Of a DNA stretch of 64,000 nucleotides, positions 2,346 through 24,994 are shown piece after piece. Source of the DNA: Ulota crispa (Eukaryota; Streptophyta; Bryopsida; Orthotrichales; Orthotrichaceae). The position numbers and the translations under genes are program-made. The stretch's first letter is position 1. Each line of letters begins with the position of its first letter. The stretch is from the NCBI GenBank assembly GCA_963920765.1, contig OY987246.1, positions 7,194,501-7,258,500 of the forward strand, given 5' to 3'. A model generated the notes under the pieces. It worked only from the letters and a program-made list of their open reading frames with translations. It ran no database searches and had not been told where the DNA came from.

Positions 2346-2444
2346 AGAACAGGCACAAAAAATTCCATATCACTAAACATTGAGTAGACATAGATCAATA
2401 GTCAGAGCAAACAAAGTAAAGACACAAAACTCACCGTGGAGGAT

Positions 2445-2701: not shown

Positions 2702-3139
2702 AATGCTAATAGCCTTTGATAACAACTTTGGCATGAGACCTTGAATGAAGCTCGAAGAAGTCAAGGATATCTGCATAAAAATATTCATCCAAATAAAGCA
2801 TTTAGAATGAAGGTGCTAAAGTTCAAGAGGATTGATTTGTATTAAAACAAAACATTGGTTTGTTGTGAAATTAGAATTCTACAAAAAGTGTCAGTACACT
2901 ATCCTCTACTAGATTAGTGTTTATCTACACTTTTCTTTCTAAAATTCATCATGATATAATATAGTTTGGCCACAAAATTTGCAAGTAGAAGAAATACTTT
3001 AATGCTGACTATTTCATGTCAGTCCTCTTTGACTAATTCTATGTTTACAAAATTTAAAGATTCAAAATTCTCAAATTTGTGTTTGTTGACCAAGAATCTA
3101 CATGTCAATTTTGGTCAATTCTTACATCATCTACACTAA
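2702..3139. other. AT-rich, nothing recognised
   Basis: No coding frame or repeat structure that I can support. Confidence 0.4.
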
Positions 3140-3440
3140 ATATTGCATTTAGGTTGCCTTACTTTGCTAAGTTACCTTATGACTCATCACTTGGTCACTT
3201 GGAGGGGCATGCAACTCTCTAAATACTTGGATTTCACATGATTTACAATTTGATCATCACTTTCTTATTTTTTGACAACTTTGTTGTTGTTGTTGGTGGG
3301 ATTTTTAAGAATTGTTTATTGTAACAATTTTTTATGAAAACTATTGTAAGAGCACTAAGTACTCAAGTACAGTAGTGAAAAATGTCAAGAAATTAGTGTG
3401 GGGCAACTTAAACGCAATATTCAGTGTAGTTATCTAAATT
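3140..3440 (+). repeat. Dispersed repeat family R3, copy 1
   Basis: Shares an ordered series of blocks with 37600-38335 and 46330-46600: a GGTTGCC start, 'CACTTGGAG..GCAA(C)TCT', 'GGATTTCACATGATTT', then 'AATGTCAAGAAATTAGTGTG' and GCAAC..AA..GCA. Direct orientation. No terminal inverted repeats or coding potential seen, so the class is unknown. Confidence 0.55.
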
Positions 3441-5302: not shown

Positions 5303-6150
5303 TATAGTACCCTAAAGAAAGTATATGGAAGTCCCAATTTTGTGTTTAAAGACTTTATTTTGAAATCAAATTTAGGAGATGCTCCGCTGAGATTTTGGAA
5401 AAAAATTCTGAACAAAAAGAACTTAGAATTTCTAGGAGAACAATTTTTGTTCCTAGCCAAATAGCTTATTTTGCATGCATAGTGAGTGATCAATCAACAA
5501 AGTGGAAATTTGTACATTCAAAGGTAATTTTTTCAAATCTCAATTATTACATCAATTACTAAGATTCTGAAAGAACTTTCTAAATGGAAACAACTCAAAA
5601 CTTACACAAGAGTAACTTTCACTTGAGGCTCAAAAGCTTATCATGCATGCCTGGTTCACAAATGAAGCCCAAACAAGCATGGTGGAGAGTAGATGGGGTT
5701 TTTTTGGAACATTTGCCTTAGTGGGGTGAGAGTTGCACATCCACACAAATATTTGCACACTTCCTACTTGGTCTACTTGTTTGAGCTTCATTTGTGAACA
5801 AGGCATGCATGATAAGCTTTTGAGCCTCAAATGAAAGTTACTCTTGTATAAGTTTTGAGTTGTTTCCTTTTAGAAAGTTCTTTCAGAATCTTAGTAATTG
5901 ATGTAATAATTGAGATTTGAAAAAATTACCTTTGGATGTACAACTTTCCACTTTGTTGATTGATCACTCACTATGCATGCAAAATAAGCTATTTGGCTAG
6001 GAACAAAAATTGTTCTCCTAGAAATTTTGAGTTCTTTTTGTTCAAATTTTTTTTCCAACATCTTAGCAACGCATCCCTTAAATTTGATTTTGAAATGAAG
6101 TCTTTAAGCACAAAACTAGAACTGCCACATACTTTCTTTAGGGTACTATA
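5303..6150. repeat. 850-bp inverted repeat (arms ~370 bp, spacer ~95 bp)
   Basis: The left arm (5303 to about 5676, from TATAGTACCCTAAAGAAAGT) is repeated in reverse complement at about 5772-6150 (ending ACTTTCTTTAGGGTACTATA). Internal landmarks match throughout, such as GCATGCATAGTGAGTGATCA against TGATCACTCACTATGCATGC. Arms differ at scattered positions and by small indels. Transcription across it would give a long hairpin. It looks like a foldback element or an inverted duplication; no coding frame is credible. Confidence 0.85.
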
Positions 6151-6154
6151 AATT

Positions 6155-6310
6155 GATGCATGCCCCCAAGGGTAAATTTTAGATTTTAAGTATCAAAAAG
6201 CTGAATTTGAAAGTTTTAGATTCAAATTTGGACTTAGAGACCTTAATTTAGTCTAAAACCATAAAAGAGGTTACAATTGAACAACACCCAACAAAAAAGC
6301 TCAGCTATTT
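6155..6310. repeat. Fragment related to the 56.1-56.5 kb palindrome
   Basis: The series GCATGC-CCCCAAG-GGTAAATTT, then TCAAAAAGCTGAATTTGA, then CCATAAA(A)GAGGTTACAA, and the ACAACACCCAA block occur in the same order in one arm of the inverted repeat at 56125-56536. It abuts the right arm of the 5.3-6.15 kb inverted repeat. Confidence 0.6.
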
Positions 6311-6362
6311 TTACAAATAAAAGTAAAAGTAAGAATTTCCCCCAAGTAAGCTTTTAATTTCA

Positions 6363-7372
6363 TTAACCCCTAAGTGTCTTGCTAGGAAAATTCAACATAC
6401 CTCCAACATGAAACCTTAACCCTTAAACGACTAAGGAGCCCTTTGCGGCCAATACAATATTTTGTATTTTCTTGTATTTGGAATGCATCCACACCTTTAC
6501 TACATTTGAAATCAACAAAGAAGTTAGAATATACATCAATGCGGTTCTAGTGAGCTAGTCAAGATCTCAAATCAAATTTTTTTATTGGTAGCAAATGCCA
6601 GTTATACAATAGTGTATTTACTATGCAATACGTAGAGCGGTCGTTTAAGGATTAAACACATTCCCCGAGATTTTGGAAAGTTGAACAAGTAATCACATAA
6701 TCCAAACCGGTCATTCTATACCCAACTATAAATCAAATGTTTTAAACCAATTTGATTTCAAATCCAAGTAAATTTGCAAAATCCCCACCATTGAGAATCT
6801 CATGTTTTCCAATTTGGGCAACAATTTAAATATGGATTTTGAACTTTCTTGTAATATTTTTTGAAAGAAAAGATTTACCTAATGGCTGATCCCATGAGAT
6901 TGTGTCTTGCTATATTTGATGGAAAAAATAACTCCACAAATGGATAAAAACTCCACAGATATGGTCACTCAAAGTAGCTAGATTCCACTAGCTCCTTACT
7001 TTAGAGCTATAAAAACCTTGCCCAAATCAAGAAAAAAAAAAGTGACACATCACCAAACTTCTCCCTTGTACAATACAAGACATGAGAGCACCCATTCCAT
7101 CTGCTCTCTAAGCCGCTCCCTTTGTTTTCCCATAGACATTCTTCTCCTAATTGTTGAAAAAAAAGAATATTTTCCATATTCCATTTAGAATCTAGAGCGA
7201 AGGAGGCGCTTCAAGGAACAACAAGCCAATCAAAAAAATTCTTGAACTAGCAACTCCATTTGGACTTGAGTGGCAGACCAAAATTTGAGCTAAAAATGCC
7301 TTTTTTGTGTACTTTCACACCTCCAAGCACCCCCTTTGGCCATATTGGGCTCTTTGGTCCTTTAGGGGTTAA
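6363..7372. mobile_element. Possible TTAA-flanked element (~1.0 kb)
   Basis: The left end reads TTAACCCCTAAGTGTC and the right end, reverse complemented, reads TTAACCCCTAAAGGACC. They share 11 terminal bases and a TTAA boundary. The interior differs from the 940-bp family and holds a nested 240-bp TTAA element. Pairing these two ends is an inference; they may belong to separate elements. Confidence 0.3.
6416..6655. mobile_element. 240-bp TTAA MITE, copy A
   Basis: The ends are TTAACCCTTAAACGAC and, reverse complemented, TTAATCCTTAAACGAC (15 of 16 match). TTAA bounds both sides. The interior (ACACCTTTACTACATTTGA, then GCGGTTCTAGTGAGCTA) is shared with the interrupted copy at 33899-34791. No coding capacity; a non-autonomous element with piggyBac-like target choice. 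Confidence 0.75.
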
Positions 7373-7539
7373 ACTTGCACTCTACTCTATTTAATTTTTT
7401 TACTTTGGTTAAATCTATGCTCTACTCTATTTTTAAAGTTTATTCTTTAGTTAACCTTTCACTCTACTCTATTCTTCATATAATAGGCTTAGTTCTATTA
7501 GTTGGGTAGTTGGGTAAGTGTGTGTGCTCCAAGAAGATT

Positions 7540-8430
7540 AAATGGCGGTTATGGTTGGCCTTGAGGATGGGGTATACACGGGGATAGGGGGTGGCCATAG
7601 GAAAAGGAGGTAAACCGCTTAAACTTTCTTACATGATAGCCTTCTGTCGGAACGGCAGGTGCACAAATTCACTAGTATCTATATTATAATAGAATATCGT
7701 GCGGTGGTGGTGGTGGTCAAACTTGACGGTTTCGTAGGTGGGGAAGACAATTCCGCAAAGTCCATCTTTAGTTCCACCTAAAAAATAGAGGAGAGTACAA
7801 GTTTAACTAAAGTTATAAATGGAATAAAGTAATATCACCTCCAACTCTTTACTAGATGTTAACAACATGTCACTGGCATTTGCACCGTCATTGGCAATTG
7901 CAGCACAACTCACGGGGATAGGGGGGCACGGGATTAGGAGGTGGGAGCATAATCTCGTTGCTACGACGGGTGCGTAAACTTGTATCTATATAATAACATA
8001 ATATCAGGCGGTCGCACTCGACGGTTCCATAAGTGAGGAGGATGATTCCGCAAAGTCTACCTTTAGTTCCACCTAAAAAATAGAGTAGAATTCATGTTTA
8101 ACTAAAGTTATAAATGGAATTAAGCAAAATCACCTACAACTCTCTTTCATATGCTTCACTGAATGTAAACAACAAGTCATTGGCAGTTGCACCATCACTA
8201 GCAATTGCACCACAACTTTCTCTTGGCCAAAAGAGAGCACGAGGATAGGGGCACAAGAATACGGGGGGCATAAGGATAGAAGGGATACGGGGATAGATGG
8301 GCATATGGATAGAGGGCACATGGATAAGGGGCATAGGGATATGGGGGGCACGGGAATATGAGGCATATGAATAGGAGGCACGGGAATAGGAACTGGGAAC
8401 ATAATCCCATTGGTACAACAAGTGCGTAAA
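7540..8430. repeat. Degenerate ~300-bp tandem triplication with an internal minisatellite
   Basis: Landmarks recur at a 297-298-bp step (CCGCAAAGTC at about 7753 and 8051; TATAAATGGAAT at about 7814 and 8112). A 'GTGC(G/A)(T/C)AAA' landmark appears at about 7652, 7963 and 8417. The third unit is expanded by a 14-16-bp minisatellite of GGGCACA/ATAAGGATAG type at about 8220-8400. On the minus strand each unit resembles a repeated exon ending in a splice-like TTTTTTAG|GTGGAACTAAAG, so a tandemly duplicated exon is possible. The protein is not recognised. Confidence 0.7.
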
Positions 8431-11265
8431 CTAGTATTTATATGTATTCATCAAACAGACACACACATTATTCTTTTGTATAAGATAGAGTTGAGTGATA
8501 TAAGTTACTTATGAGAGGAGGTACGTAACATTGTCCAAAAAATCTAGATTGTAATGGCTTGATTAATGTTAAAATAAGTATTCTATTAATACTCTCTCCA
8601 CTATAGTTGACTAGAGTTTACTTTAGTAATAGAATCCCATGGACCAATAGTAGAGAAAGACTTTTACTTGTATCCTCTCTCCTTAGAATATAGTTGGAAA
8701 CCTGCTCAGAATAAGATCATTTACATTACATTACTTTCTTCTTTCTCCTTGCATACTTTAGTTAACTTATATATCTTTTGTAGCTTTGTTGTGTTTCCTA
8801 CTCTTAACAATTAGGCCTCAGTGCGTTGTGCCATTTCATGTTCCTTTGGCTTGGAGGTAGCAAATTGTGGGGTGTTGCAACGCCTTCAATTGCGCAGGTT
8901 CAAATTTGTTCTTTTGGCAGGTGTGGGGTTTTGCACGTGTGTATGTGAGAGTGTTTGTGGTACAAGATTTCTGCAGGATTTTCTTATGTCTTACAGTTCT
9001 AAGATTCCGGACTAGCTTGATGTGCATATTCTGTCAGGTTGTTGAAGCCTAAGTAGTCCAATACTAGTGCTTCTCCTTTTGCATGTTCAAAGTTGAGCGC
9101 ATAGGAATATTTCCTTGTCTCAAGTTCTAATTTTCTTGTACTGCTGTGTTATCTCCATTTTTTTGTGTCTAAAGTACTTAGGGTTTGCGCATAATGAGTA
9201 CGCGGCTTTAAGTTTTGCGGATTGTGTTTTGCTTCTTCGGCGATAATATTGGGTTTTTGTAATTGTAGGTCAACAACTTTTGTATTCATCATTGTGATTG
9301 GGAAAGTTAGTACTTAGTAGATTGAAATCCAAATGTTTTTGGAGGCAAAGTGAAATACAGAAATACCCAAAGTTGTTTTTGAAGATCTCTTGAACAAGCA
9401 CAAATCGGCTGTGCTATCCAAGGTTTCTTGTGAGGTGTTTTGATAAGGTTCTTGGTTTGAGAATTTTGTGCTTTTGAAAGTAGGCCATTGAAAGCGAGTA
9501 ATGGAATGGGGTTATTATTTTTTGTCTTTGAGTTGCTTTTGAGTTGCTTTCAAATTCTTTTTGTATTTTTTTTGTAATCTATTTGTATTGTTTCTAATTG
9601 CACGCATAGTATAGTCTATGGTTATCTTGCAATTGCTATGGGTGTTTTTGTGGTTTGGTTTCAATGATTCACTTGTTCTTATGCAAGAGAAATGTCTCTT
9701 TGGTTTTCTTTGGTTATTTAGTTTTTTGTGGAATTGTTAGAAAACAAGGAGTTGTTTGAGGTTTGTCAATGTTCTTGGGATGTAGGGGGGTTTGGAATGC
9801 TCTTCATGGACATTTTTGGGAAAAATCCTTTTCTTTGTAGAGATTGTATTTGAAGCAAAGATTTGGTTGATTTGAAGTTGCCTTCTCTAAGGAAAGTAGT
9901 GCTATCTTGGCATTTTGATTTAGGTTTGCAAGTTTGATATGGCAATTGTTGAGACTAGAATTATTCAGGGTGGTCTGATTTTTTATTTTGTAGGTCTATC
10001 ATCCATTGTTTACTAATCATAAAATTGGCCCTTTTACCAAAGGACAACAAACCAATGGATAGCAAACCAAAGGACAACAAACCAAAGGACAAGAAAAGGA
10101 GACAAAGAAGAGGAGCAACTAAAGGAAGAGATAGTAGTTTAGATTGGGTATGGATATGGAATGAGGTAAAGAGTTTAGAGTGGGAAAATATGTGGGGCAT
10201 GGGGTTAGCTACAACTTGTGTAGGTGTGACCATTCATATGGTTTACAAGCTAATTAGCTTAGCAGAAAAACTTGATAAATCTCACTAACAACAAACAAAT
10301 TACTGTTTGAAATGACTGCACAATAACAACAAAGCCTCTATTCATGGCTAAAGTTGTAGCACTTGTAGTGCAGTTGTTTATTTGGCTTAGGAGATGAGGT
10401 CCGTTGTGTACATTTTGGGATGAACGATGTTGAGTCCATGATCTTGGTCCATGATCAAATGAAATCTTTGTTGACATCTGGATGAATGCATGGTTGAGTG
10501 GCTCAAAATTGTGTCACACTATAAAAAACTGCGCACATTCAATTTTCAAATACCTAAAAGGTACATTGGAAATTTTCAAAAAAGAAAAGAAAGTCCATTG
10601 TAGAGATTTAAACTTCATTGTAACTACAATAATGTTGTTCAGTTTCTTCTTTGGCATTTTATGGAAGTGTAAAGGACTTTTGAAAAAACATGAGTGTGAC
10701 ATTTTTGCTGGCAGCAAGTTTTCCAAGGACTTTTTAAAGATAACATAGTTACTTAAGAGAATACAAAGAACTAGGATTCTAGTGGATATTTGGATAAAAT
10801 TTTAAGAAATTATAATCTTGTTTAGTAAATGTGTATAGAATGTTTGCAAAGGACTTTTTAAGGCCTTTTTAGACCTTCAATCTTACGAGTTCTTTTTCTC
10901 CTTTGTTTTTTTTTGTTTTTTGAATTTTTCTTTTTGCAACTTGAGTGTTTTTCTAAGTTCTAGAAGTGCTTCTAGAGATAAGGACTTTTTGAATAACTTT
11001 GATTGATTTAAGTCTAAGCCCTAGAACACAGCCTGCAAGAGGTAATTTCAAAAAGAATAGATCCGGAGACATCAGACCGTTGGATTGAGTTTATAAATCC
11101 ATTATAGAAATAAAGAGGCCACCTAGCCGCCAGGACACTTGATGCAATTACAAACTAACAATTGAATCAAAATCCTTAAACCCACTTAAGGGACTTTGGA
11201 GATAGGGACTTTTGCCAAAATTGAGCCACTCAACCTTGCATTCACCCTCTACAAAATTTTGAATA
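8431..11265. other. 2.8 kb without a recognisable gene
   Basis: The stretch is T-rich on the plus strand from about 8.7 to 9.9 kb. A lysine-rich 87-codon frame at 10025-10288 consists largely of imperfect repeats of DNKPKD-type codons and has no family resemblance. I see no terminal repeats. Confidence 0.4.
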
Positions 11266-11269
11266 GGCA

Positions 11270-11670
11270 ATTACAATCCATATTTGCTTTTAACCTAAAA
11301 TTTTTGATTCTCAAAATAACCTTGAATACTTCCTTATATTAGAAAATAAGAGCTACACGTTATGATTTGATGAAGTTTAATTCAACTTCAAAATTTTGTA
11401 CACATGCACTTTTGGTACCTTTGGGCATTTGGGGGTTAATAAGGCTTGTAATTTAGAGACTTTGAGGTTAGCTTTTCTCGTGTGGACAAGACACCCTCAA
11501 ACTAGATGAAGGCATTGAATGATAGCTTTTCCCGTGTAGACAAGACTCACTCAAACTAGATGAAGGCATTGAATGACATGGAATGCAACCAACGGGAAAA
11601 GAGGGGGCACCTAGAAGGGCAGGCCACGCAAGCAAGTAGCGACTGAGTCCCTAGAACGCCACCCGCACCA
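11270..11670 (+). repeat. Direct duplicate, left copy
   Basis: Matches 12065-12420 in the same order: CAAT..CCATAT..TTT, then TTATGATTTGATGA, AACTTCAAAATTTTGTAC, a GGGCATTTG..GGTTAATAAGG(C) block, and ATGAAGGCATTGAATGACAT with GGCACCT. Inside it a ~55-bp segment (about 11468-11522) is tandemly repeated at about 11523-11577. The two copies flank dyad cluster A and lie about 790 bp apart. Confidence 0.75.
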
Positions 11671-11740
11671 ATTGAGCTCCCAAGCATGTTTGACGCCACC
11701 CGCTCCAATTGAATCTCAGAAGTTTGTCATTAGCAACAAT

Positions 11741-11880
11741 ATATGACTAGAGTCATGACATGTCTAACTTTAATGAATTTAGGGCTTCTAATTAATTAGA
11801 ATAGCATGGCCATTTTATGACTGCAAGTTATGACTATTGAGAGTCATGTATACCTCAAAATGACTCATGCTAGTCATAAC
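11741..11880. promoter_or_regulatory. Dyad cluster A (TGACT-N6-AGTCA)
   Basis: Two exact dyads lie at 11831-11846 and 11861-11876. Degenerate or half sites lie nearby around 11740 and 11815. Same motif and spacing as clusters B-D. Lies upstream of the decayed gene at 12.9-22.9 kb and between the two direct duplicates. Confidence 0.7.
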
Positions 11881-12064
11881 CCAAAGACATGAAATGCCCA
11901 TTTTGTTGTTCTTATAAGAACTTTTAAAACATATTGCTTCAAATAATTTCCAATGTAGATTTCTATGAAAGATGTAGTGCTGTTAGGGCTCAATTTCAAT
12001 ATCATCCATCATCTGGAAAGTCAAGGTTGAAGTGGAGACCATTCTACAAAATGTTGAACAGACA

Positions 12065-12420
12065 ATAATCCATATTCATTTTGAACTAAAATTAGTGAAT
12101 CTCAAATAAACCTTCATTGCAAAATTGTATTAAAACCTAAAAACTAGTTAACATTATGATTTGATGATATTTAATCAACTTCAAAATTTTGTACAAATTC
12201 ATCTTTTGCACCTTAGGGCATTTGCAGGTTAATAAGGCCCGTAATTGAAAGACTTTAGGGTTAGTTTTTCTCGTATGTACAAGATGCACTCATACTAGAT
12301 GAAGGCATGGAATGACATGGAATGCAACCAATGGGAAAAGAGGAGGCACCTGTGGGGTGGGCCACGCAGGCATGGAGTGATTGAGTCCTTGGAACGCTAC
12401 CCTCAAAAGCCAAGCTCCTG
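12065..12420 (+). repeat. Direct duplicate, right copy
   Basis: Partner of 11270-11670 (see that entry). It leads directly into the GC-richer segment that precedes the first readable exon of the decayed gene. Confidence 0.75.
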
Positions 12421-12880
12421 ATCTCAACCGTGTTGCATCGTGTTGCGCCGTCGCACGCTACACAGACTCGCGCACTTGAGGGAAGCTGGACTTTTGCAAC
12501 CAAGCACAAGGAGGGTTGTGAAAGAGGTGAGGCAATTGAGAGTACTTGTAGAGATTTCTAGGTTTAGGGATGATTTCACCTTGATATTTGCTACCCGTTG
12601 GGATTGGCCTTTATTTCATCCTTGATTTAAACGGCATTTTGCAATGGGCTCAGTGCTGAGATTCTGTGTTTGTGTGCAAGGTGGATTGTGATTGGACGCA
12701 CGTGGACTTTGAGGCTGAAGGACACAGGGCCGCCAAGCCGCTGAGCCAGGGAGCCAAGAAACTGGATCGTGGGTCTTGTAGTTGGTACTAGTACCAGATC
12801 AGATTGGAATCTAGCTCGGACAGATTAGTGGAGCGGCGCACAGTCTTCAAACTTGGCATAGCGGCGCACAATCTTCAAGT
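12421..12880 (+). other. GC-richer upstream segment, function unknown
   Basis: More GC-rich than its surroundings. Short frames (for example 12440-12625) show no motif. It could hold a 5' UTR or a further decayed exon of the gene that follows. Confidence 0.3.
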
Positions 12881-13439
12881 TGGCTAATCGTGCTAAGCTT
12901 AGGGAGACCTCCATCTGAGAACAACTCTGCAACGCCAACATTCAACGTAACCAAGAGAAGTTGAAGGAATTAGGGTTGCCCGGATTAGAGGAGCATTTGG
13001 AGAGCGGTGGAAGTCAATACCCAAAGCATCTTGGCCCTGTCAATTGCACATTGTAGGTCCAATCTCTCTCAATCAATGACTTCCCCATTAGAATCATTGT
13101 TTACAGCTATAGCAAACCTAGAGGACAGTAATATAGTGCAAATCTTCCAAAGAATTGCTCTCCTTCCACCTATCACTGCAATTATTTTGCACAAGATTGG
13201 AGTGACTTTAGCTAATGACGTAGTTGAAGCTTCCAGGATCAAAGGAGGACCACCACCACGAAGGAGTTTCAGGATCTAGCTCCAAGTACAATACAACACC
13301 CTTGAAAAGCCTCTTGTACCAGGAAGCAAGGTATCCCTACGTCTATCACTTGATTCCATTGGATTTCTTTGTGAAGCCCTGAAATGTAGTCCTCACTACC
13401 ACTTGTGAGAAGCACAGAGGGGGAGTCTTGTCTTTTTTT

Positions 13440-14254
13440 TTAGGGTTGAAAGTTGCTATGATTGCAAGGCCATTGAGGCTTGCAGTTTGTGTGTATATGG
13501 AGTGCCGGTCCATCAATTGGCTCACAAGGAGGCGGATGGTGCTTTTTTTTTTTTAAACTTGGAAGTTGCTGTGAGGGCAAGGCCATTAAGGCTTTCATTT
13601 TCTGTGTTCTCCAAGTGCTGGTCAATCAAGGGGCTCATAAGGGGACAGATCTTGCTTTTTTGCTTAAAATTTGGATGTGCTGTGAGATTTGGCCCTTTGT
13701 GGCTCTCATTTTCTGTGTTTTCAGAGTCTAGTTGATCAAGGGGCTCACAAGGGGCCATTTGTTGCTTTTTGTTTAAAATTTGGAAGTTGCTCTGAGGTTT
13801 GGCCATTGAGGCTTTCATTTTCTGTGTTTTTCGAGTCTAGTCAATCAAGGGGCTCACAAAGGGCAGATTGTTGCTTTTTTGTTTAAAATTTGGAAGTTGC
13901 TCTGAGGTTTGGCCCATTGAGGCTCTCATTTTTCTTTGTTTTTGGAGTCTAGTCCATGAATTGGCTCATAAGGAGCAGCGATTGTTTTAAAAAATAATTT
14001 GGAAGTGCTATGAGGCAAGGCCCATTGAGGCTCTCATTTTTTGTGTTTTCAGAGTGCTGGTCCATCAATTGGCTCACAAGGGGGCAGATGGTGCTTTTTG
14101 TTTAAAATTTGGAAGTTGCAATGAAGCAAGGCCATCAAGGCTCTCATTTTTAGTGTTCTCCAAGTGCTGGACAATGAAGGGGCTCACAAGGGGCAGATTG
14201 TTGCTTTTTTGTTTAAAATTTAGAAGTTGCTGTGAGGTTTGGCCCTTTGTGGCT
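13440..14254 (+). repeat. ~110-bp tandem repeat array, left part (about 8 units)
   Basis: Units run GGCTCACAAGGGG(C)AG, then a T-run, TTTAAAATTTGGAAGT, GCTGTGAGG, GGCC..TTGAGGCTCTCATTTT, TGTGTT..AGTCTAGTC-ATCAAGG. Successive units start every 105-112 bp. The array breaks at 14254 inside a unit and resumes at 17265 in the same unit phase, showing that the intervening 3 kb was inserted later. Open frames here arise from the repeat and are not genes. Confidence 0.92.
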
Positions 14255-14999
14255 TGTGAGTGCTCAAACCTCTCCCTCAAGAAGTAAGCGCAAGCACAAC
14301 CGGGTTTTAACAAAATTGGAAAATGGGCTATAACAGCAAGAAGGTAGTTTTGGTTGTAGATTTCCAACTAAAGATGCCTTTGAAGCAATGGATCTTTACT
14401 AATGAACTTACAACACGTAATGATGAACAAAAATGGCACTATGCTCCTAAGGAGCTGGGTGTCGTCCCGACGTGGCTAAGTGTGAAGTAAGTGGAAAGTA
14501 AAGTGATCATACCTTGTCGTGGGGTCCGTCATGCTCCATTGCCTTGCCATGGGTGGCCTCCATCTTGTGGTCGGGAAGTAATTACCTCAAGGGATTGATA
14601 ACTCTTAATTGTTGACAAATAATCACGACACTCCACCGGTGGTTGGATCAAAGGTTCTTTAGTGGGAGGGCTTGCCTCTTATGCTCATGACGAATAATCA
14701 CAACATTGACTAGTGCCAAGGAAAGGAGTTAAGAAGGTACTTGACCACACTTAGTTAATCATAACAATATCCTTGATGACGCAAGTGGACTTTTTCCCTA
14801 CTTTACATGCTTGCTATGACGGGTCCATTGTTCAAACCACCAAGTTATGACACCATGTCATTAAAATATAAGAATAATTGTATTGAAGCATGCAAAGAAT
14901 AATTAATCAAGTTTAGGATACCTTAACTTAGAGATCCGCACTTCCAACCATAGAGTTAGGTGAGTTTTTAAAGCTTGACCCTTCCCTTCAAAATTGTGG

Positions 15000-15175
15000 G
15001 AGGTCAAGGAGGCTCCGGAGGTGAGAGTTGAGGCCCTAGACGTGGAAGTTGAGGCCTTGGAGGCCGGAACCTTTGGAGGCCGGAGCCCTGAAGATCGGAG
15101 CCTAAAGCTGGAGCCCAAAGACCGGAGCCTAAGGCCAGAGCCCAAAGACCGTGGGTCAAGGGTCGAGGGCCACAG
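15000..15175 (+). repeat. Short GC-rich tandem repeats inside the LTR-like element
   Basis: Imperfect units of about 18-24 bp built on GGAGCCTAAAG/GGAGCCCAAAGACCG and GAGGCC. Much more GC-rich than the surroundings. The open frames on both strands here follow from the repeat. Confidence 0.7.
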
Positions 15176-15269
15176 GCTGTGGTGGGCTGGTACCTGGCAC
15201 TAGCTAATACCCAGCGTTGGTACCCGGCTGCTGTGGGTAAGAACTCAAGTTCAAGAGATCAAGAGAAAA

Positions 15270-15640
15270 TAGAATGCCAAAGCCAGACTCAAAATTGAGA
15301 GGGACAGGGCTTGACAATGAGAATGCCGGAGCTTAGACTCAAAATTGAGGGGACAGGGTCGACTAGTGAGAATGCTAAGAGCTTGGACTCAAAATTGAGA
15401 GGATAAGGCTTGACTAGGAAGATGCCGGAGCTAGAGTCAAAATTGAGAGGGGCAGGGCCGACCAGTGAAAATGCCGGAGCTCAGACTCAAAATTGACAAG
15501 GCTCGACTACTAAGAATGCTGGAGTTCATACTCAAAATTGACAGAGAGGACTGGCATGAGAATGATAAGAGCTCAGATTCGAGATTGAGAAGGACACAGG
15601 GCTGGCCTGGTGAGAATGTCGTGAGCTCAAGCCCAAAGGT
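15270..15640 (+). repeat. ~50-bp tandem repeat (about 8 units) inside the LTR-like element
   Basis: Units run AGAATGCCGGAGCT, then (T/C)AGACTCAAAATTGAG, then AGGGACAGGGC, then GACTAGTG, with unit lengths of about 45-55 bp. The last two units are more degenerate. Confidence 0.85.
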
Positions 15641-16919
15641 TGGGGGAGCAGTAGCTGGTTGGAGATGGCGAGGAATGTCATGTGCTAAAGGAATCTGTGG
15701 GCAAGGCTAGGCCTCAAGCTGAGAGATTCAGTTAGCACAGTGTCTTCTCAGAGAGCGTGCTTGTGGAATCAAGAGAGCTGGCTAGTGTGAGGCTGAGCTG
15801 TCAGGATTCCCCAAGAGCTGCTAGGAGGTCTTGCGATGCAGTGATGAGGTGGTGGCAGAGTTCTGGTAAGGCGTTGGTAAGCTTATCACTTCTAGAACAC
15901 ATGGCAAAAGGCGACTCTCTACTAAGGTGGGACACACGTGGGTGGACAGGGAATTAATAAGGGGGAACAAGGCACAAGTGTGGAGAGGTGAGGAAAAAGC
16001 TCTAGGAGTGAGAGAGTGGGTATGGAGAGAATACAAGGGGTCTAACTCAAAAGGTAATGATAACAAGTGATGGGAACTCAAAGGACCATGGGCCCAAAGG
16101 ATGGTAAGTGACAAGAGTGATCTAAAAACAAGAAAGTGATGATAAAACTGATAAGTGGCCAAGGAGTGGGAATGAGTATAAGTGATGGTTTGGGAGGAGG
16201 TGGGCCTCCCTTTATACTTTTGAGGGAGGACACATCGGCCCTCTATCTAGGACATCCATAGATCCCTTGAAATCTACCTAAAATCTAAGAAAAACTCAAA
16301 ATGGATGAAATCTGGATGATTTTGCCATAACTTTTGGAGCGTAGCTCCAAATAACAAATAGATGGTGGAATTGGATTCCTTGGACCCAAAATAGCTGGTT
16401 TTGGTTGTTCACACTCCAAATTCCAAGCTACAGGGCGTTGGGAAACTTGAATGAAGGGTTAGAAGTGGATGGATGAAAAACCCAGAATTGGCAATTCATC
16501 CCAAATTGAGAAATTGACTTCTTGAGGTCTTCCAATATTGTTGGGGGAGCCGGAAAACACTCCTTGCTTCCGTCAATGGGGCTCCAAATGGATGATATCT
16601 TGAAATTGGATGTTGCGTGCCTTTTTGAAACTGGATGGATGTCGTCGTTCAAGGTCTTTCCGCTATCAAAACAACTTGAAACTTGAGGGATTTGTAAATC
16701 CTTGAGAATCTCTTCCATGAATTTTAATGGAATTTTATTGCCCTTTGTCAACCTCCTTTGACCAAGGTTAACTAGTAGCTTAGCAGGGTTAACTGCTTGG
16801 AATCACGCTCTCTAAAAAGCAAAAGGTCTTGGGAACATTGGGTATAGATGTACCCACTCAATAATGTAACGTGAACTGAGTGATGTGGCCCTTGGCCATG
16901 GCATAACTAATTTGCTCCT

Positions 16920-17052
16920 AAACTAACCCTCTCTAATTAGGTTAGTGGGGACTTTTGGGGGGATCCTGAGCCCCTCGTAGCCAAACCTAAACTAATCCTC
17001 TCTAATTAGGTTAGTGGGGACTTTTGGAGGGGATCCCAAGCCCCTAGTAGCG
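16920..17052 (+). repeat. ~70-bp tandem duplication near the 3' end of the LTR-like element
   Basis: CTCTCTAATTAGGTTAGTGG followed by GGACTTTTGG and GGATCC..AGCCCCT..TAG occurs twice, at about 16929-16980 and 16998-17050. Confidence 0.9.
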
Positions 17053-17264
17053 TGTCACTCAAACTCACTAATAACCACTAATTCTCCTCAACTCTCTCTT
17101 AACGACTTACCAAATGGAGTAGGGTAAATGGCGTACCGCTAACCATTTGGTCTAATTAATCTAAATCAACATAAATAGCTATTCCACTTATATTAATGTA
17201 ATTTCAAAGCTAAGTAAAATGAAAATTGAATTTAGAACTTCTAGTGCTGAATCTGGGGCTCACA

Positions 17265-19800
17265 TGGCTCTCATTTTCCGTGTTCTCAAAGTCTAGTCAA
17301 TCAAGGGGCTCACAAGGAGCACATGTTGCTTTTTTGTTTAAAATTTGGATGTGTTGTGAGGTTTGGCCCATTGAGGCTCTCATTTTTCTTTGTTTTTGGA
17401 GTCTAGTCAATCAAGGGGCTCACAAGGGGGCAGATGTTGTTTTTTTGTTTAAAATTTAGAAATGCTATGAGGTTTGGCCCTTCGTGGCTCTCATTTTTTG
17501 TGTTTTCAGAGTCTAGTCTATCAAGGAGCTCACAAGGGGCCAATTATTATTTTTTTGGTCAATATTTGGAAGTGCTGTGAGGCAAGGCCAACGAGACTTT
17601 CATTTTTTGTGTTCTCCGAGTCTAGTCCATGAATTGGCTCACAAGAAGCTGCGGTTGTTTTTGTAAAAAAAATTAGAAGTGCTATGAGGCAAGGCCCATT
17701 GAGGCTCTCATTTTCTATGTTTTTGAAGTGCTGGTCTATCAATTGGCTCACAAGGGACAAATTGTTGTTTTTTTGTTTAAAATTTGGAAGTGCTGTGAGG
17801 TTTGGCCCTTCGTGGCTCTCATTTTTTCTGTTTTTAGAGTCTAGTCTATCAAGGGGCTCACAAGGGGCACATTGTTGCTTTTTTGTTTAAAATTTGGAAG
17901 TTGCTGTGAGGCATGGCTCTTTGTGGCTCTCATTTTTGTGTTTTTGGAGTGCTGGTCCATCAATTGGCTCAGAAGGGGGCAAATGGTGCTTTTGTGTAAA
18001 AAGTTTGCAAGTTGCTGTGAGGTATGGCCCTTTGTGGCTCTCATTTTGTGTGTTTTCAGAGTCTAATCGATGAAGGGCTCACAAGGGGCAACGAGTGTTT
18101 TATAAAAAAAAAAAATTGGAAGTGCTATGAGGCAAGGCCATTGAGGCTCTCATTTCTATGTTCTTAGAGTCTAGTTGATCAAGGGGCTCATAAGGGGGCA
18201 GCGGGTGTTTAAAAAAAAATTAGAAGTGCTGTGAGGCAAGGCCATTGAGGCTCTCATCTTGTGTGTTTTTGAAGTGTTGGTCCATCAAGGGGCTCACAAG
18301 GGGGCAGATGGTGTTTTTTTTTATAAAAAAAATTGGAAGTTGCTATGAGGGCAAGGTCATCGAGGCTTTCATTTTCTGTATTCTCCAAGTGCTGGTCAAT
18401 CAAGGGGCACACAAGGGGCAGATGGTGTTTTTTTTTTTTTTAAAATTTGGAAGTTGTTGTGAGGGCAAGGCCATCAAGGCTCTCATTTTTTGTGTTTTCA
18501 GAGTCTAATCAATAAAGGGGCCCACAAGGGGCAAATTGTTGCCTTTTTGTTTAAAAATTTGGAAGTTGTTGTGACGCATGGCCCATCGAGGCTCTCATTT
18601 TGTTTTGTTTTGGGAGACTAGTCTATCAAGGGGCTCACAAGGAGGTAGCAGGGATTTAAAAAAAATAAAATAGAAGCACTGTGAGGTTTGGCCCATCAAG
18701 GCTCTCATTTTATGTGTTTTAAGAGTGCTGGTTGGTCAAGGGGCTCACAAGGGAGCAAATGTTGCTTTTTTGTTTAAAATTTGGAAGTATTGTGAGGCAA
18801 GGCCCATTGAGGCTTTCATTTTCTGTGTTCTTAGAGTCTAGTCCATGAATTGGCTCACAAAAGGGTAGTGGGTGTTTTTTTTAAAAAAATCTGGATGTTG
18901 CTATGAGGCATGGCCCTTTGTGGCTCTCATTTCTCTGTTTTTGGAGTGTTGGTCCATCAATTGGCTCAAAAGGAGGCAAATGGTGCTTTTTTGTAAAAAG
19001 TTTGCAAGTTGTTGTGAGGCCTGGACCTTTGTGGCTCTCAATTTTTGTGTTTTTGGAGTCTAATCGATGAAGGGCTCATAAGGGGCAGCAGTTGTTTTAA
19101 AAAAAAATGGAAGTGCTGTGAGGGTAAGGCCATCGAGGCTTTCATTTTCTGTGTTCTCCGAGTGCTGATCAATCAAGGGGCACACAAGGGGTAGATGGTG
19201 TTTTTTAAAAAAATAAATTGGAAGTTGCTGTGAGGGCAAGGCCATCAAGGCTCTCATTTTCTGTGTTTTTGGAGTCTAATCAATTAAAGGGCTCACAAGG
19301 GGGCGGATGTTGTTTTTTTTTTTTTAAATTTGGAGGTGCTGTGAGGCATGGCCCATTGAGGCTCTCATTTTGTGTGTTCTTGAGTGCTAGTTGGTCAAAG
19401 GGCTCACAAGGAGGTAGATGTTGCTTTTTTGTTTAAAATTTGGAAGTGCTGTGAGGCATGGCCCATCGAGGCTCTCATTTTTCTTTGTTTTGGGAGACTA
19501 GTATATTAAAGGGCTCACAAGGGGGCAGCGGTTGTTTTTTAAAAATATTGGAAGTGCTATGAGGCAAGGCCCATTGAGGCTCTCATTTTCTGTGTTTTTG
19601 GAGTGCTGGTCCATCAATTGGCTCACAAGGGGGCAGATGGTGCTTTTAAAAAAAAAAATTGGAAGTGCTGTGAAGGCAAGGCCCATTGAGGCTCTCATTT
19701 TTTGTGTTTTCATAGTGTTGGTCAATCAAGGGGCCCACAATGGGCAGCGAGTGTTTTTTTTTAAAATTTGGAAGTTGCTGTGGAGAGCAAGGCTCTTGGA
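17265..19800 (+). repeat. ~110-bp tandem repeat array, right part (about 24 units)
   Basis: Continuation of the 13440-14254 array with the same unit order and a 103-115-bp step. Variation is concentrated in the T/A-run of each unit (TTTTTTGTTTAAAA versus TTTAAAAAAAA types), and two unit subtypes (rGGCAAGGCC and rGGTTTGGCC) are interspersed. The whole array lies inside the large intron of the decayed gene. Confidence 0.92.
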
Positions 19801-19984
19801 TGCTCCTTTTTTAGTTTTTGGTGTTGCTGGTCGACCCTAGGGGCTTAGGGGTGGGATGAATTCTTTGTTCTTCATGTTGGCATTGATGTCATGGAGAATT
19901 GATTACTGCGGGGCCATGTTCATTATTGACAATGGGATTTCCGTGAATGGTATTACTTGGTGCAAGAGCGCTACTGTCTTGAGT

Positions 19985-20165
19985 AGGAGTAGTCATTGAT
20001 TCATTTTGGCTAGTCATTTGATTGGGTGTAGCCATTGATTCAATTATGCTAGTCATTGATTCATTTAGGCTAGTCATATGACTGGCTGTAGTCATTGATT
20101 CACTTCAAAGCGCAGTCATATGATTCGGTGTAGTCATTGCTTCATTTTTGCCACCAACTTTTGGA
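19985..20165. promoter_or_regulatory. Dyad cluster B (tandem TAGTCAT units)
   Basis: A roughly 39-bp unit with two TAGTCA half sites is repeated about four times (TAGTCATTGATTCATTTTGGC then TAGTCAT-TGA-TTGGGTG). One exact TGACT-N6-AGTCA lies at 20079-20094. It sits at the 3' end of the 7-kb intron, about 160 bp before the next exon. Confidence 0.75.
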
Positions 20166-21844
20166 CTGTGGTTAGTCACTTCTGTAAGTTGCTTAAACAT
20201 TTGCTAACCTCCTATAGTCAGTATTTAGGCATGCTACAGTGACTTTGTTGAATTGCTTTGTCTAAAACCTAAACCATTTGGTATCTTGTCACATTAAGGG
20301 AATTGTATTTAAAAGGCTTGTGTGCAGAGGTCATCCAAGTTTCTAAGTGGGACATTGCAGGAGATGTCAAAGAAGATGGGTGACAAGGAGGCGGACAAGG
20401 AGTTCAACTACGTTCAGGAAGGCATGGGGTATGCACAGCCGGCAATCACTCATCGGGTGTTTCAAGACAAGCCCTTCCCAGAGGAAGAGCTTGTGGAGGT
20501 GGAGCTGCAGCACCCGGATTCCCTGGACCTTGAGATGCGGTTGCTGTAGAAGCAATTGGAGATTTTGTAGAAGCAAAATTGCTACAACAACGTGGAGCGC
20601 AGCAGAGGGCTCCACTACTTGGGAAAGGAAGCATGTGGCCTCTTGGAGGAGATCAACCCAGAAAGAGGCATTAGACCTTGAAGGCATAGATGGACCAAGC
20701 CGCGCAGCGAGCTAGACTGCCATTGACCTTTGCAATATAGTGGAGGTCGACAGGGATGGGGTACCCGAGGGTGACAACCGTTATATGTGGCTTCAATGTC
20801 TTAAAGGTCATACCTAGGATATTGATTTTAGGGTGGATAAGTATGACCACCTTAGCAAAGGCATGTTGTTGGTGGTGAAAGACCGTGTGGATAGCACCTT
20901 TGACTACGTGGGTGGGTTAGGCAGCGTCTCGGATGACACTTTCAACTTTGAGTTGAAGGAGCAGCTCAAGACCAAGAGGTACAAGATGAAGAGGCACATG
21001 CTAGCGGGTTACGAGATGTCTGAGTTGGTGCAAGCAGACCATGGGGCCAACCTTCGCACCTTTGTTGAGAGCAAGAGGAAGATTTAGGAAGCTAACAGGC
21101 TGAAAGCTTCCCGCTCCATGGTATAGACTCCTTCAACTAGAGGGCACACAGAGGAAGATGTGCAGGACACCTTGGTAAGCACCTTGTTCACTTCATTGTC
21201 TTGGTCTTGAAAATGTTTGTAGAGCTTGCCTAGTATGGCTTGCAGGTCTGAAAATTGTATGAATGTTGTGCATAAACTCTTTCTACCAAGTTCCTAAACT
21301 CATTACATGGTTTTTATCATTGTAGGCCAAAGATTTGGGGAGGCCTCCCACACCCCTTGAAGTGGAATTTCAAATGGCATAGTGGAAGGGGAAGGGCAAG
21401 GGTAAGGCAAGGCATGTGGCTAGTATGAAGCTTTCTGAGGTGTTGTCTGGCGCTAGCATGCAGACCAAAATGTCATTGCCGAGCCTCATGTATAGTTACC
21501 CACCTAACAAAGACGTGGATGCGCGATTGATTGGGGTGGAGACTTCCATGAATGAAATCAAGGATATCTTGAAGGAGATGAACTCATCTTGTCGGAAGGA
21601 CCCCAAACCTGCAAAGTTTGCAATGAGGAGTTCAGGCAAGAGCGGCAAAGAGGAGGAGCTAGAGAAACCACCTTCTACCGTGAACCTTGATTCTAGTGAC
21701 AGCTCTATCTCCAAAGTGAGATTGGGTTTTGGAAGAATTTTATTCTTGTGTGCATTCAACATTGAATTACCTTAAGGTTTAAGGGTTTGCACCTATTGCA
21801 ATACACATAGATGCCAATGGCAATAAGGTTCTATGTGCATATGT

Positions 21845-22150
21845 CCCCTCTCAGTCATGTTGGAGTGCGTATGACTAAGAATAATCATCTAATTGATGTG
21901 TATGACTGTTGATAGTCCACAAAAGATGACTATAGGTAGTGATTGCAATTATAGTCACATTTATAACTACTATGTCTATTTGTAGTCATAGGTTTAGATA
22001 CATGACTAGAGATAGTCAAAAGCAAGAGTCATGGTTGAGTACATGTAGTCATTTTTATGTTTCTGTGACATGACTATTGGTCTTTAGGTGAGGCTAGATG
22101 ATGACTCAATATAGTCATATCTTGTTATTGTGTGACTAAGTCAAGTCATT
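21845..22150. promoter_or_regulatory. Dyad cluster C
   Basis: Exact dyads at 22004-22019, 22102-22117 and 22133-22148, with several one-mismatch sites between 21863 and 22075. The cluster fills most of the intron between blocks 3 and 4 of the decayed gene. Confidence 0.8.
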
Positions 22151-23004
22151 TCAATAAGACAAATGTGAATTCCAACCATGTGTACACTTGTTTGGTATGT
22201 ACTAATAATCTTTGCTTCATGTAACCCTCCATTGAATGGTTTCAAACAGGGAGCTGAAGCTGTGATTGAACCAATTGGGATTGTTGCTTTGGAAGCAACA
22301 GATGAGGAATAAAGGTGCGTGCAAAAGACCCATCTCAGCAGAGAAAGTGACAAGGGTGGTTCCTCAAGGGGAAAGCAGTTGGACACGATTGGTAGTGACG
22401 GTGGGGCACCATTGCAAAAGAAGCCCTGCATCACAGAGATCAAAAAACTCCGCTAGGACAACGGTGGCTCGCCAAAGGTTATAGTGCAGAAGACCGGTGC
22501 AGCAAAGGGTGGAGGCCAGAAGGATGTAGGCTAGAAGGGCGGACATGGCAACGCTGCTAGCAAAAAGAAAGGGAAGGAGCCTTTGCCTGTCCAAATCATA
22601 GCTAAGAAAGTGGTGTCTAAGTACACACCTAGTGGCCATGAGATTCGGCCTATCCCACCAGATTCACTAGTTGTTCCAGGGAAGGCTAAGGTCTTTCACA
22701 TAGTTGTTCTCATAGTGGGATTTGTGTATGAGATCTTCAGTTACAAGGTGGGCAAGGAGGGCAAGATGGTTGGTATGGGGACAATGCACAAAGACAAAGG
22801 CAAGCTCTTGCACTCTTCGGTGGAGACCATAGGTGCTGCCATTAGATAGTTTGTGATTTGGCATGTCCGCTTCATATATGGTCATGCGTCCACGTCTAAG
22901 GAGGTAGCTTAGGGTTTAGGCCTTGCTTGTATATGGAGGCCTCTCACTTTGTGTTATTTCATTATTATAATGAATTAACCACTTTTTTCCCTTGCTTACA
23001 AATT

Positions 23005-23935
23005 TTTGACTAGTGTTAGTCACTTCAATGCATGCAAGTAGTATTGTATGACTAGTAGCAGTCACTATAGTGTGAAAATATGGCTACATGTAGTCAATAC
23101 TACAAACCTACCTTGCCATGTTTCTCATATGTGACTACCTATAGTAATATCCATGCAATTGTCTAAACCCTTTTAAAGAGTCCCTATGACTGCACGTAGT
23201 CATTTATGGATCTAAACTTCACTATCTCTAGTCATAACCTAAATCCCAAAACCAACAAAATGCACTTCCAAACACTGTCAAAAAATGTTTAAATGACTGT
23301 CAATAGTCATAACATGACTCAACTATGACTATATGTAGTCATAGTTGTTGAGACTAAACCCCCTCAATCCATGCATAATTTGGCCAAAAATGACTAAGTT
23401 TAGTCTTAACTAGAACCCCATTATGACTATCCTTTGTCATATGGCCCTAAACCACACCTCTACCCAAATGTAGTCATAATTTTCACCTTCATGACTAGTA
23501 TTAGTCACAATCAACACAAATCTGACTAGTGTAAGTCACCCTAAACCATACAATTAACTAAACCCCTAGACTCTCCTAAACTTGACTAAAACAAGTCATC
23601 ATGTAATCCAAAATGACTTACCACAGTCATTGATCCACCCTAAAAAACATTGAAATTGATGACTCAAGAGAGTGAAACTATCACCTAAACCACTAGATAT
23701 GACTACATGTAGTTGTAGGTTATGACTGTAGATAGTCATATCAGTCAAAGAACATGACTACGCAGTGTCATGAGATTGAGAATCCCATGCCAAATCTCCA
23801 TTGAGGTCTCTAAACTCAATTGGGAACATCCCATTGGGAACAACTGGCCCACCCAAATGACTGCCAATCATTTAAGCATATGACTTGACCGAGATGACTA
23901 GAGCATGATTGTAGAGAGTCTAGTCAACTCCTGGT
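23005..23935. promoter_or_regulatory. Dyad cluster D, about 20 sites in 930 bp
   Basis: Ten exact TGACT-N6-AGTCA dyads start at 23007, 23049, 23187, 23294, 23326, 23492, 23523, 23583, 23614 and 23723. About ten more differ by one or two bases. The 6-bp centre varies but its length is fixed, so the half sites are 11 bp apart, one helical turn. The array follows the last exon-like block and has no coding frame of its own. Confidence 0.88.
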
Positions 23936-23984
23936 TTTTCTAACTTTTTGGAATCAAAAGCCTAGTCATAAAAGGCCTTTTCCT

Positions 23985-24226
23985 TGTGGGATATCACCTC
24001 CTATTCTCGTGCCCCCTATTCATATGCCTCATATCCGTGTGCCCCCCATATCCCTATGCCCCTTATCCATGTGCCCTCTATCCATATGCCCATCTATCCT
24101 TGTATCCCCTTTATCCTTATGCCTCCATATCCCCGTGCCCCTCGTATTCTTGTGCCCCCCTATCCTCGTGCTCTCTTTTGGCCAAGAGAAAGTTGTGGTG
24201 CAATTGCTAGTGATGGTGCAATTCAC
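23985..24226. repeat. Minisatellite, inverted copy of 8180-8400
   Basis: Units of about 15 bp (TATCC-TATGCCCC type). After them come CTCTCTTTTGGCCAAGAGAA and TGGTGCAATTGCTAGTGATG. The same series occurs in reverse complement at 8180-8400. Three overlapping open frames are repeat by-products. The homology ends where a TTAA-family fragment starts. Confidence 0.88.
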
Positions 24227-24994
24227 ATCTGAAGTGAAAAAATAAGTTTTTTTCCATGCTGCCCAAATGTCTCAAAAACTTTTGACTGCTCCTATATCAA
24301 AATTTGCTTTTTGCAAAGTTGAGGTTTATTTTTCCATGTAGAAGACCAAGTCAGGTAAGTGTGGGAAATTTTTTCACATGAATTGGAGGTGGAAATTGTA
24401 CTTTGTAAAATCTTGCAATGCCGTAAGGCCACGAAATTTGCATACACACTAGGCAAAATTGGAGGATTTACGTAAAATTTAGAAATCAAAATTACTTTGA
24501 TCCAAATGGTTGAAACCAAGGAATCTTAGTCTACTACAACTGGGGAAAAAAAATCACGAACAAATACACAAAGAGCTCAGAAAAGTAAAGCACCAAATAT
24601 TACAAGGGGCAAAAGGAATGGAGGGTTGGGAGTGCCACACCTACCCGCAAATTAAAATTTCTCATATCTCATTGCATCAATCAAAATTGAAAGATTCAAA
24701 GCTTCCCACATATACAGAAATCTAAAGAACTAATTTCAATTTTTTTTTAAATGCAAATTTTAAAGAAGTTTTTTGGGCTGCCTAGAGTGCTCCCCTCCCT
24801 AGTTTTTCAAAAATTCATGCATAAGTTCTTCAATAAATGTTAAAATGTAGAAAAAATTAGATGCCCTCACGGATCTTTGAATTCTCCATCTTCCATAAAA
24901 GTTTTAGAAAACCACACAAAACAATTTAGCTGTAAGTATATGTCCAAAACCCCACTTGGACCCCAAGGGGCCAGTGGGACCTTTAGGGGGTTTA
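24227..24994 (+). mobile_element. Left-truncated copy of the ~940-bp TTAA family
   Basis: Contains the family landmarks in order: CACATCTGAAGTGAAAA, TTTTGACTGCTCCTATATCA, CATGTAGAAGACCAAGTCAG, CTTGCAATGCCGTAAGGCC, TTGATCCAAATGG, and the GGACC-TTTAGGGGGTTTA end. The first ~230 bp are missing and the terminal TTAA is altered. Confidence 0.8.

Follow-up and report, generated by a model that had tools for sequence, protein, structure and literature searches.

To our knowledge, few systems in which a transposon protein is confined to copies of its own element have been worked out in detail. In the Mutator-like VANDAL elements of Arabidopsis, the protein VANC21 reportedly binds a short motif that is dense in the non-coding regions of its own family, including introns (PMC5735166). 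The VANC motifs given there and in a second report include YAGTATTAY and AGTTGTCC, that of VANC21 is arrayed in a single orientation, and the arrays are partly built from tandem repeats (PMC5735166, PMC10398659). CACTA elements such as En/Spm and soybean Tgmt* are large, carry a multi-exon gene and have sub-terminal repeats composed of short direct and inverted motifs. In Tgmt*, a repeated motif with the potential to form stem-loops occurs 12 times at one border and twice at the other, and such motifs are presumed to be bound by a protein that the element itself encodes (PMC2613891).

The window analysed here, a stretch of 64,000 nucleotides from Ulota crispa, contains a palindrome array with the appearance of docking sites for a protein recognising its own element. 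The array resembles the VANC targets in the density of a short motif upstream of and within introns, in the tandem-repeat character of one cluster and in the rarity of the motif elsewhere, which is judged here within the 64-kb window. It differs in that the sites are symmetric dyads, which do not show the single orientation of the VANC21 motifs, with a centre of fixed length and a pairing at three helical turns; long inverted repeats are present, and Pfam identifies no MULE transposase. The likeness to the CACTA elements lies in the large size, the multi-exon gene, the lopsided placement of direct and inverted motifs and the reading of these as protein targets. Here, however, no terminal CACTA, 3-bp duplication or transposase domain was found, the dyads also occupy intron-like sequence and the left 3.5 kb carries none of them.

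The dyads lie within a plant-type transposon of ~16 kb, for the most part decayed, that is enclosed by terminal inverted repeats at 8187..8391 (plus strand, beginning TTGCACCATCACTAGC) and 23999..24221 (minus strand), the left copy pairing with 24221-23999. These repeats, which the original prediction had overlooked, match at 87% over 223 alignment columns and at 100% over the outer 65 bp. They contain TTGCACCATCACTAGCAATTGCACC, and the inner part of the left one is a G-rich GGGCATATGGATA-type minisatellite. Position 24221, the outer edge of the right repeat, is an insertion junction, as in a DNA transposon with terminal inverted repeats. Similarity to a repeat family starts at this point, and the six other copies shown extend leftward with common sequence. 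The right part of the interrupted copy occupies 24222..24989 (plus strand) and its left half is missing; the family measures ~940 bp in two copies and ends with TTAA plus CCCCTAAAGGAC. On the other side, older tandem-duplicated left-end material at 7671..8186 (plus strand; 7671-7910 resembles 7978-8217 at 76%) makes the exact left junction uncertain. With the left junction rearranged, no convincing target-site duplication was found. A match of 4 bp (TGCA) is internal to the inverted repeats, and a 7-bp match at 7666, the best near the left end, was judged to be due to chance.

Tandem repeats abound in the element, among them the G-rich ends and a 110-bp repeat of about 30 copies in an intron-like region at 13468..19793 (plus strand), where two blocks (13468-14244 and 17266-19793) are separated by ~3 kb of other sequence. 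A six-frame Pfam scan of 8187-24221 revealed no transposase, either of the MULE (VANA) or of the Tnp2/TNPD type; a decayed or missing one would look alike. A bacterial-mode tRNA scan of the window identified no tRNA, and a search of it against Rfam at gathering thresholds gave no match.

Sixteen exact TGACT-N6-AGTCA dyads occur in the window, all within 11,831-23,738 (first start 11831, last start 23723). The 48 kb of the window beyond the element, including the surroundings of the ESF1 gene, is devoid of them. Other spacings of TGACT and AGTCA between 0 and 30 occur 0-3 times each in the same window, and 200 Markov-1 simulations of it contain a mean of 0.06 and a maximum of 2 exact N6 dyads. 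The dyad is also the commonest in the window across all 5-mers and spacings 0-30. The runner-up unrelated dyad counts 9 and the top dyad in each of five simulated windows 3-4, in a comparison limited to 5-mers of at least three different letters. One-mismatch dyads number 16, of which 15 lie inside the element and one outside, at 3006; the latter was excluded from the site counts. The original prediction of sixteen exact dyads with about as many near matches in four clusters, a preferred N6 spacing and no exact dyad elsewhere in the 64 kb is thus borne out.

The 31 element dyads with at most one mismatch are distributed over clusters A (2), B (4), C (8) and D (17). None falls in the exon pieces described below, and 29 are located within 19980-23770, where exons make up 1,867 of the 3,791 bp. 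Within the 64-kb window, and apart from the one-mismatch site at 3006, this short motif is specific to the element and densely arrayed in non-coding sequence, as in VANDAL elements. Cluster A (11831..11876) consists of two exact dyads 30 bp apart, the first of them 3.6 kb inside the element. Cluster B (19980..20178), with four dyads (one exact) at spacings of 99, 42 and 42 bp, sits immediately upstream of the exon at 20361 and consists in part of TAGTCATTGATTCATTT repeated in tandem (21/60 bp), with eight TAGTCA and no TGACTA. Cluster C (21872..22148) places eight dyads (three exact) in the intron-like stretch 21716-22249, and cluster D (23007..23770) places 17 (ten exact) at a distance of 451-1214 bp from the element's right end. 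Whereas CACTA elements carry sub-terminal motifs at both ends, the dyads are thus sub-terminal at the right end only, and 14 of the 31 lie outside cluster D.

The dyads are themselves paired, a new observation that the original prediction had overlooked. A neighbour at 30-33 bp, about three helical turns, accompanies 23 of the 31, including seven of eight in cluster C and 14 of 17 in cluster D (31-33 bp). In C and D combined, 11 of 23 gaps measure 30-33 bp as compared to 2.1 expected, which none of 20,000 randomisations reached, and the P value is still 5e-5 if the best 4-bp bin is chosen anywhere. Clusters A (a single gap, also of 30 bp) and B (an open tandem repeat) were left out of this test. 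With the dyads masked, self-similarity in D is highest at lag 106 (0.368; P 0.039 for the maximum over lags) and successive pairs are often ~100 bp apart. Some of the pairs may thus have arisen from one another by old duplication, and the pairing P value may be too small. The other gaps have no clear phasing (resultant 0.37, n=12, given without a null distribution). Half-site spacing and pair spacing both fit the geometry of the DNA helix.

Aligning the 31 sites extends the dyad to ATGACTA-N4-TAGTCAT, which is symmetric with a 7-bp half-site. At the outer two positions of the centre, 43 of 62 half-sites carry the favoured base, which is A in the left half and T in the right, and the bases flanking the dyad externally share this preference (44/62). 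Of a centre predicted to be fixed in length and free in sequence, only the fixed length holds in full. The base preferences of the two halves vary independently of each other: Watson-Crick combinations number 15 at positions 6/11 (15.7 expected) and 16 at positions 0/17 (16.7 expected).

Three decayed exons lie on the plus strand. The first (20361..21174) has in-frame TAG codons at 20547, 20568, 20713, 20815, 21085 and 21124, and its frame shifts somewhere from 20660 to 20674. The second (21326..21715) is bordered by AG and GT and contains a TAG at 21380. The last (22250..22912) carries TAA at 22310 and TAG at 22454, 22532, 22847 and 22910, the final one of which may be the original stop. This amounts to 11 TAG, one TAA and no TGA; TGA is absent from 615 exon codons compared to 37 in the two other frames, although the pieces were preselected for absence of TGA and TAA. 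Translation of TAG as glutamine was ruled out as the true genetic code by the ESF1 locus, where three open frames, two of which Pfam confirms, use 15 CAG and no TAG.

Judged from sequence, the exons form a reading frame that is dead and belongs to the transposon, not to the host. The array had been placed in the non-coding parts of one gene, possibly as a gene-specific regulatory array; the non-coding location stands and such a regulatory array is conceivable, but the gene is this decayed frame of the transposon. The encoded frame has no Pfam family above cut-off (best E 0.092) and no convincing homologue among solved structures (best E 0.37), and two exon queries found no homologue among viral contigs. 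Single-sequence structure models of two exon pieces are poor (pLDDT 52 and 39).

We give about an even chance to the explanation that fits best, namely that the dyads are sites for a dimeric, VANC- or TNPA-like DNA-binding protein of the element's intact relatives. The prediction of such sites in an undescribed element gains from the inverted repeats, the helix-matched spacings and the independent halves; binding is what it predicts. A homodimer would contact two ATGACTA half-sites that are 11 bp, or one turn, from each other and so share a face of the helix, and dimers on neighbouring dyads 30-33 bp apart could bind cooperatively as a tetramer. Such binding would keep the spacing while centre and linker drift. 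With sites gathered on the promoter side, in introns and in the 3'/sub-terminal flank, the element would mark itself for a protein of its own encoding. That protein might keep the element unsilenced and expressed, as VANC does for VANDAL elements, or ready the ends for transposition and regulate it, as TNPA does for En/Spm, and both roles may combine. Of these, we consider self-marking for activation or anti-silencing somewhat more probable as the main role, given that 14 of 31 sites lie in intron-like sequence or 3.6 kb inside the left end. More tentatively, we speculate that the element stands for giant plant DNA transposons of a lineage that is undescribed and belongs to neither CACTA nor VANDAL. 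Such a lineage may have independently evolved a geometric code of self-recognition with palindromic half-sites at one turn, dimers at three turns, sequence that is free in between and a tetrameric, element-encoded reader.

Any dimeric factor would fit the same site data, and the dyads could instead form a transposon-borne enhancer through which a host transcription factor drives the element's own expression. Several plant factors (bZIP, WRKY and TALE homeodomain) share a TGAC core, but we know of no half-site arrangement of these with this half-site and an N4/N6 centre. The absence of exact dyads from the other 48 kb of the window is not what a host factor suggests, and some thirty sites in four clusters are more than expected of a host enhancer. 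We regard this alternative as rather unlikely.

That the locus is a true CACTA/En-Spm element, with TNPA-type sub-terminal sites serving transposition only, is less probable still. Its cluster D is sub-terminal and its array lopsided, as in Tgmt* (PMC2613891), and CACTAGCAATTGC is present in both inverted repeats (8196 and 24212). This CACTA is not terminal, however: the inverted repeat begins TTGCACCAT and extends 9 bp beyond it. The flanks of the inner CACTA (CAT/ATG) form no 3-bp duplication, nor do those of the outer ends, with the left junction rearranged. Where the CACT...AGTG pairs listed have 3-bp flanks that match, their ends mismatch at 5 or more of 13 positions. A search for a nested element (left ends 8392-11859, right ends 23760-24329) returned three pairs that combine a 3-bp duplication with a 12-bp repeat of at most 2 mismatches; CACT begins none of them. 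The empty left 3.5 kb, the intronic clusters and the lack of a Pfam transposase in six frames also speak against such an element, and the suggested CACTA-type system is reduced to an analogy.

It is similarly improbable that the array is an old minisatellite with no function, the palindrome having been part of its unit. In favour stand the overt 21/60-bp repeat of cluster B, the many tandem repeats of the element and the lag-106 peak in masked D. Yet the 12 pairs have linkers that resemble each other no more than shuffled ones do (identity 0.292 versus 0.286, P 0.35), and with the dyads masked, mean self-similarity at lags 30-33 shows no significant increase in D (0.296 versus 0.282, P 0.095) or C (0.262 versus 0.276, P 0.79). 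Pure decay would not spare half-sites and spacing alone. The weakest alternative, a palindrome that works as a folded single strand in RNA hairpins or DNA cruciforms, is rejected as very unlikely: D folds far better as RNA than its shuffles (z -8.25, 20 shuffles), as any palindrome array would, but the variable pairs do not covary, none of eight two-mismatch sites is compensatory and, in the minimum-energy fold, only 3 of 17 D dyads pair into a stem of their own.

If the dyads do serve a self-recognising transposon protein, the element would represent a second, unrelated solution to self-recognition, readable from sequence as a spacing code and testable by DNA-binding assays with spacing variants. 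Pairs of ATGACTA-N4-TAGTCAT at 31-32 bp would then provide a simple signature for the family in other genomes.

Among the matches listed from the open-licence literature, none reports the dyad motif or the element. In public collections, the paired-dyad pattern occurs in one viral and five bacterial contigs, five of which carry a single pair; all six are taken as unrelated based on base composition and site lists, and only the sixth was read through. This Blautia contig (L004) has seven TGACT-N6-AGTCA spaced at 27-32 bp. It differs from the Ulota crispa array in that its dyads lie among bacterial genes and form tandem units whose centres and linkers are largely conserved. We take it to be a REP-like bacterial palindrome repeat that is convergent with, and unrelated to, the Ulota crispa element.

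The window holds 16 exact copies of the dyad TGACT-N6-AGTCA, all within 11831-23738, as originally noted. The fixed 6-bp length of the centre also stands within the window, where the same half-sites occur 0-3 times at each other spacing from 0 to 30 and the reversed arrangement AGTCA-Nn-TGACT 0-4 times per spacing. TGACT-N6 is the commonest of all 5-mer dyads with spacing 0-30 in the window, and 200 first-order Markov versions of it contain a mean of 0.06 exact dyads (maximum 2). Allowing up to one mismatch yields 31 sites in 11.8-23.8 kb, with the near matches falling into the four expected clusters: A (11831-11876, 2 sites), B (19980-20178, 4), C (21872-22148, 8) and D (23007-23770, 17). These counts leave out a single one-mismatch site at 3006.

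Symmetrising the 31 sites gives the half-site A-TGACT-A. Its five core positions were set by site selection, which leaves the flanking preferences (outer A 44/62, inner A 43/62) as the sole independent evidence. Positions beyond the half-site, outward or inward, carry at most 0.14 bits each. We conclude that the true motif is the 18-bp dyad ATGACTA-N4-TAGTCAT, and the idea of a centre fully free in sequence has to be given up.

The dyads are also paired. In clusters C and D, 11 of the 23 gaps between adjacent dyads measure 30-33 bp, against a mean of 2.1 and a maximum of 9 in 20,000 random placements (cluster ends fixed, 18-bp minimum spacing, clusters A and B outside the test; P 5e-5 for the best 4-bp gap bin at any position). 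The other 12 gaps are without clear helical phase (resultant 0.37, a figure without a null distribution). Cluster A adds one further 30-33 bp gap, and cluster B instead has 42-bp steps inside an open tandem repeat. By site position, 23 of the 31 dyads have a partner at 30-33 bp (A 2/2, B 0/4, C 7/8, D 14/17).

Tandem copying could produce the same spacing. The linkers of the 12 pairs resemble one another no more than shuffled letters do (identity 0.292 versus 0.286, P 0.35). In sequence with the dyads masked, lags 30-33 show no significant rise in mean self-similarity, either in cluster C (0.262 versus 0.276, P 0.79) or in cluster D (0.296 versus 0.282, P 0.095; 0.333, 0.319, 0.272 and 0.261 at lags 30, 31, 32 and 33). 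Once masked, cluster D is most similar to itself at lag 106 (0.368; over lags 15-199 the maximum has P 0.039), which counts against our reading of the spacing as true pairing. Since this lag is close to the ~100-bp step separating several pairs, part of cluster D may be an old duplication, its pairs then not being fully independent.

The gene to which the array was first assigned lies inside a ~16-kb element bounded by inverted repeats (8187-8391 and 23999-24221). These repeats match at 87% over 223 alignment columns, with an identical outer 65 bp and a G-rich minisatellite as inner part. The element breaks one copy of a ~940-bp repeat family whose ends bear TTAA and CCCCTAAAGGAC, termini that we take to be piggyBac-like. 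Both ends are seen at 53833-54775 and 55072-56012, and partial or longer copies lie near 36041, 44155-44508, 44828, 52566, 667-1021 and 24222-24989. Because family similarity begins abruptly at 24221, while six other family copies compared here (36225, 44322, 45014, 52751, 54018, 55259) run on leftward with sequence common to them, 24221 is an insertion junction. The left junction is less clear: the left end has diverged duplicates (7671-7910 resembles 7978-8217), the left part of the interrupted repeat was not found in 1-12000, and there is no convincing target duplication. A host gene, ESF1, lies nearby at ~26.7-30.3 kb (Pfam RRM_ESF1 3.3e-19, NUC153 1.5e-11).

Within the element, a 110-bp tandem repeat of ~30 copies occupies the intron-like region (13468-19793) and is divided by ~3 kb of other sequence (~14250-17250) with its own 50-bp repeats. 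Cluster A is flanked by a direct duplication (11248-12405), where 11248-11522 resembles 12043-12315 (78%) and 11571-11667 resembles 12310-12405 (84%).

Five plus-strand exon pieces (20361-20660, 20674-21171, 21326-21715, 22250-22309 and 22316-22912; 615 codons) contain 11 TAG, no TAA and no TGA in frame, and one additional TAA lies between the last two, at 22310. The other two frames hold 25 TAG, 9 TAA and 37 TGA, a comparison that is not unbiased because the pieces were chosen for long TAG-tolerant frames. Three open frames at the ESF1 locus contain no TAG, so this codon is unlikely to be read as sense. The counts support a once-coding frame that has since decayed, chiefly by TAG in place of an expected CAG; nine CAG are left. 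Observed/expected CAG/CTG stands at 0.65/0.64 for the element and 1.07/1.20 for the ESF1 region. The left flank gives 0.35/0.56 and the right flank, taken whole, 0.81/0.77. The depletion is thus not peculiar to the element and is stronger still in the left flank. TAG/CTA is 0.88/1.09 in the element versus 0.56/0.63 in the ESF1 region. CAG/CTG loss with TAG stops is consistent with methylated CHG sites being deaminated in silenced plant repeats. That the inverted repeats keep an identical outer 65 bp when the frame already has at least 10 premature stops suggests either a recent move of this copy, driven by proteins from others, or gene conversion at its ends.

No exon piece reaches the cut-off of any Pfam family (best E 0.092). 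A six-frame scan of the whole element likewise yields nothing above cut-off; its sole match below E 0.1 is a short PRESAN hit (0.007). Two pieces folded singly give low-confidence models, and searches of viral contigs found no relatives. That an element-encoded protein binds the dyads is our guess. An open frame of 109 aa at 9959-10285, rich in lysine/arginine over part of its length (best Pfam match E 0.64), is a possible small element gene.

None of the 31 dyads falls inside an exon piece, and 29 lie within 19980-23770, of which exons make up 49%. Paired dyad positions vary independently, and none of eight two-mismatch sites shows compensatory changes; the sequences favour two half-sites, each contacted separately in double-stranded DNA, rather than a folded strand. 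With half-sites one turn and dyads three turns apart, the binders would be dimers that pair. The placement of the dyads in upstream, intron-like and 3' parts resembles that of the targets of VANC, the Arabidopsis VANDAL proteins that bind an arrayed motif (PMC5735166, PMC10398659), and the soybean CACTA element Tgmt* has a comparably lopsided sub-terminal cluster (PMC2613891). From the separate half-sites, helical spacings and these two likenesses, we read the array, analyzed in one copy of the element, as its own putative recognition sites. They could serve anti-silencing, transposition, or both.

The paired-dyad pattern also occurs in one viral and five bacterial public contigs, which we take as chance plus one unrelated bacterial palindrome array. 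That array lies at positions 177-376 of a Blautia contig, where seven TGACTCA-type palindromes follow one another in tandem every 27-32 bp. Elsewhere in the window, 5303-6150 is a long hairpin (375-bp inverted repeat, 93% complementary, 98-bp spacer), and 40592-40770 holds ~15 copies of the 12-bp tandem repeat AAAACAAGATAC.
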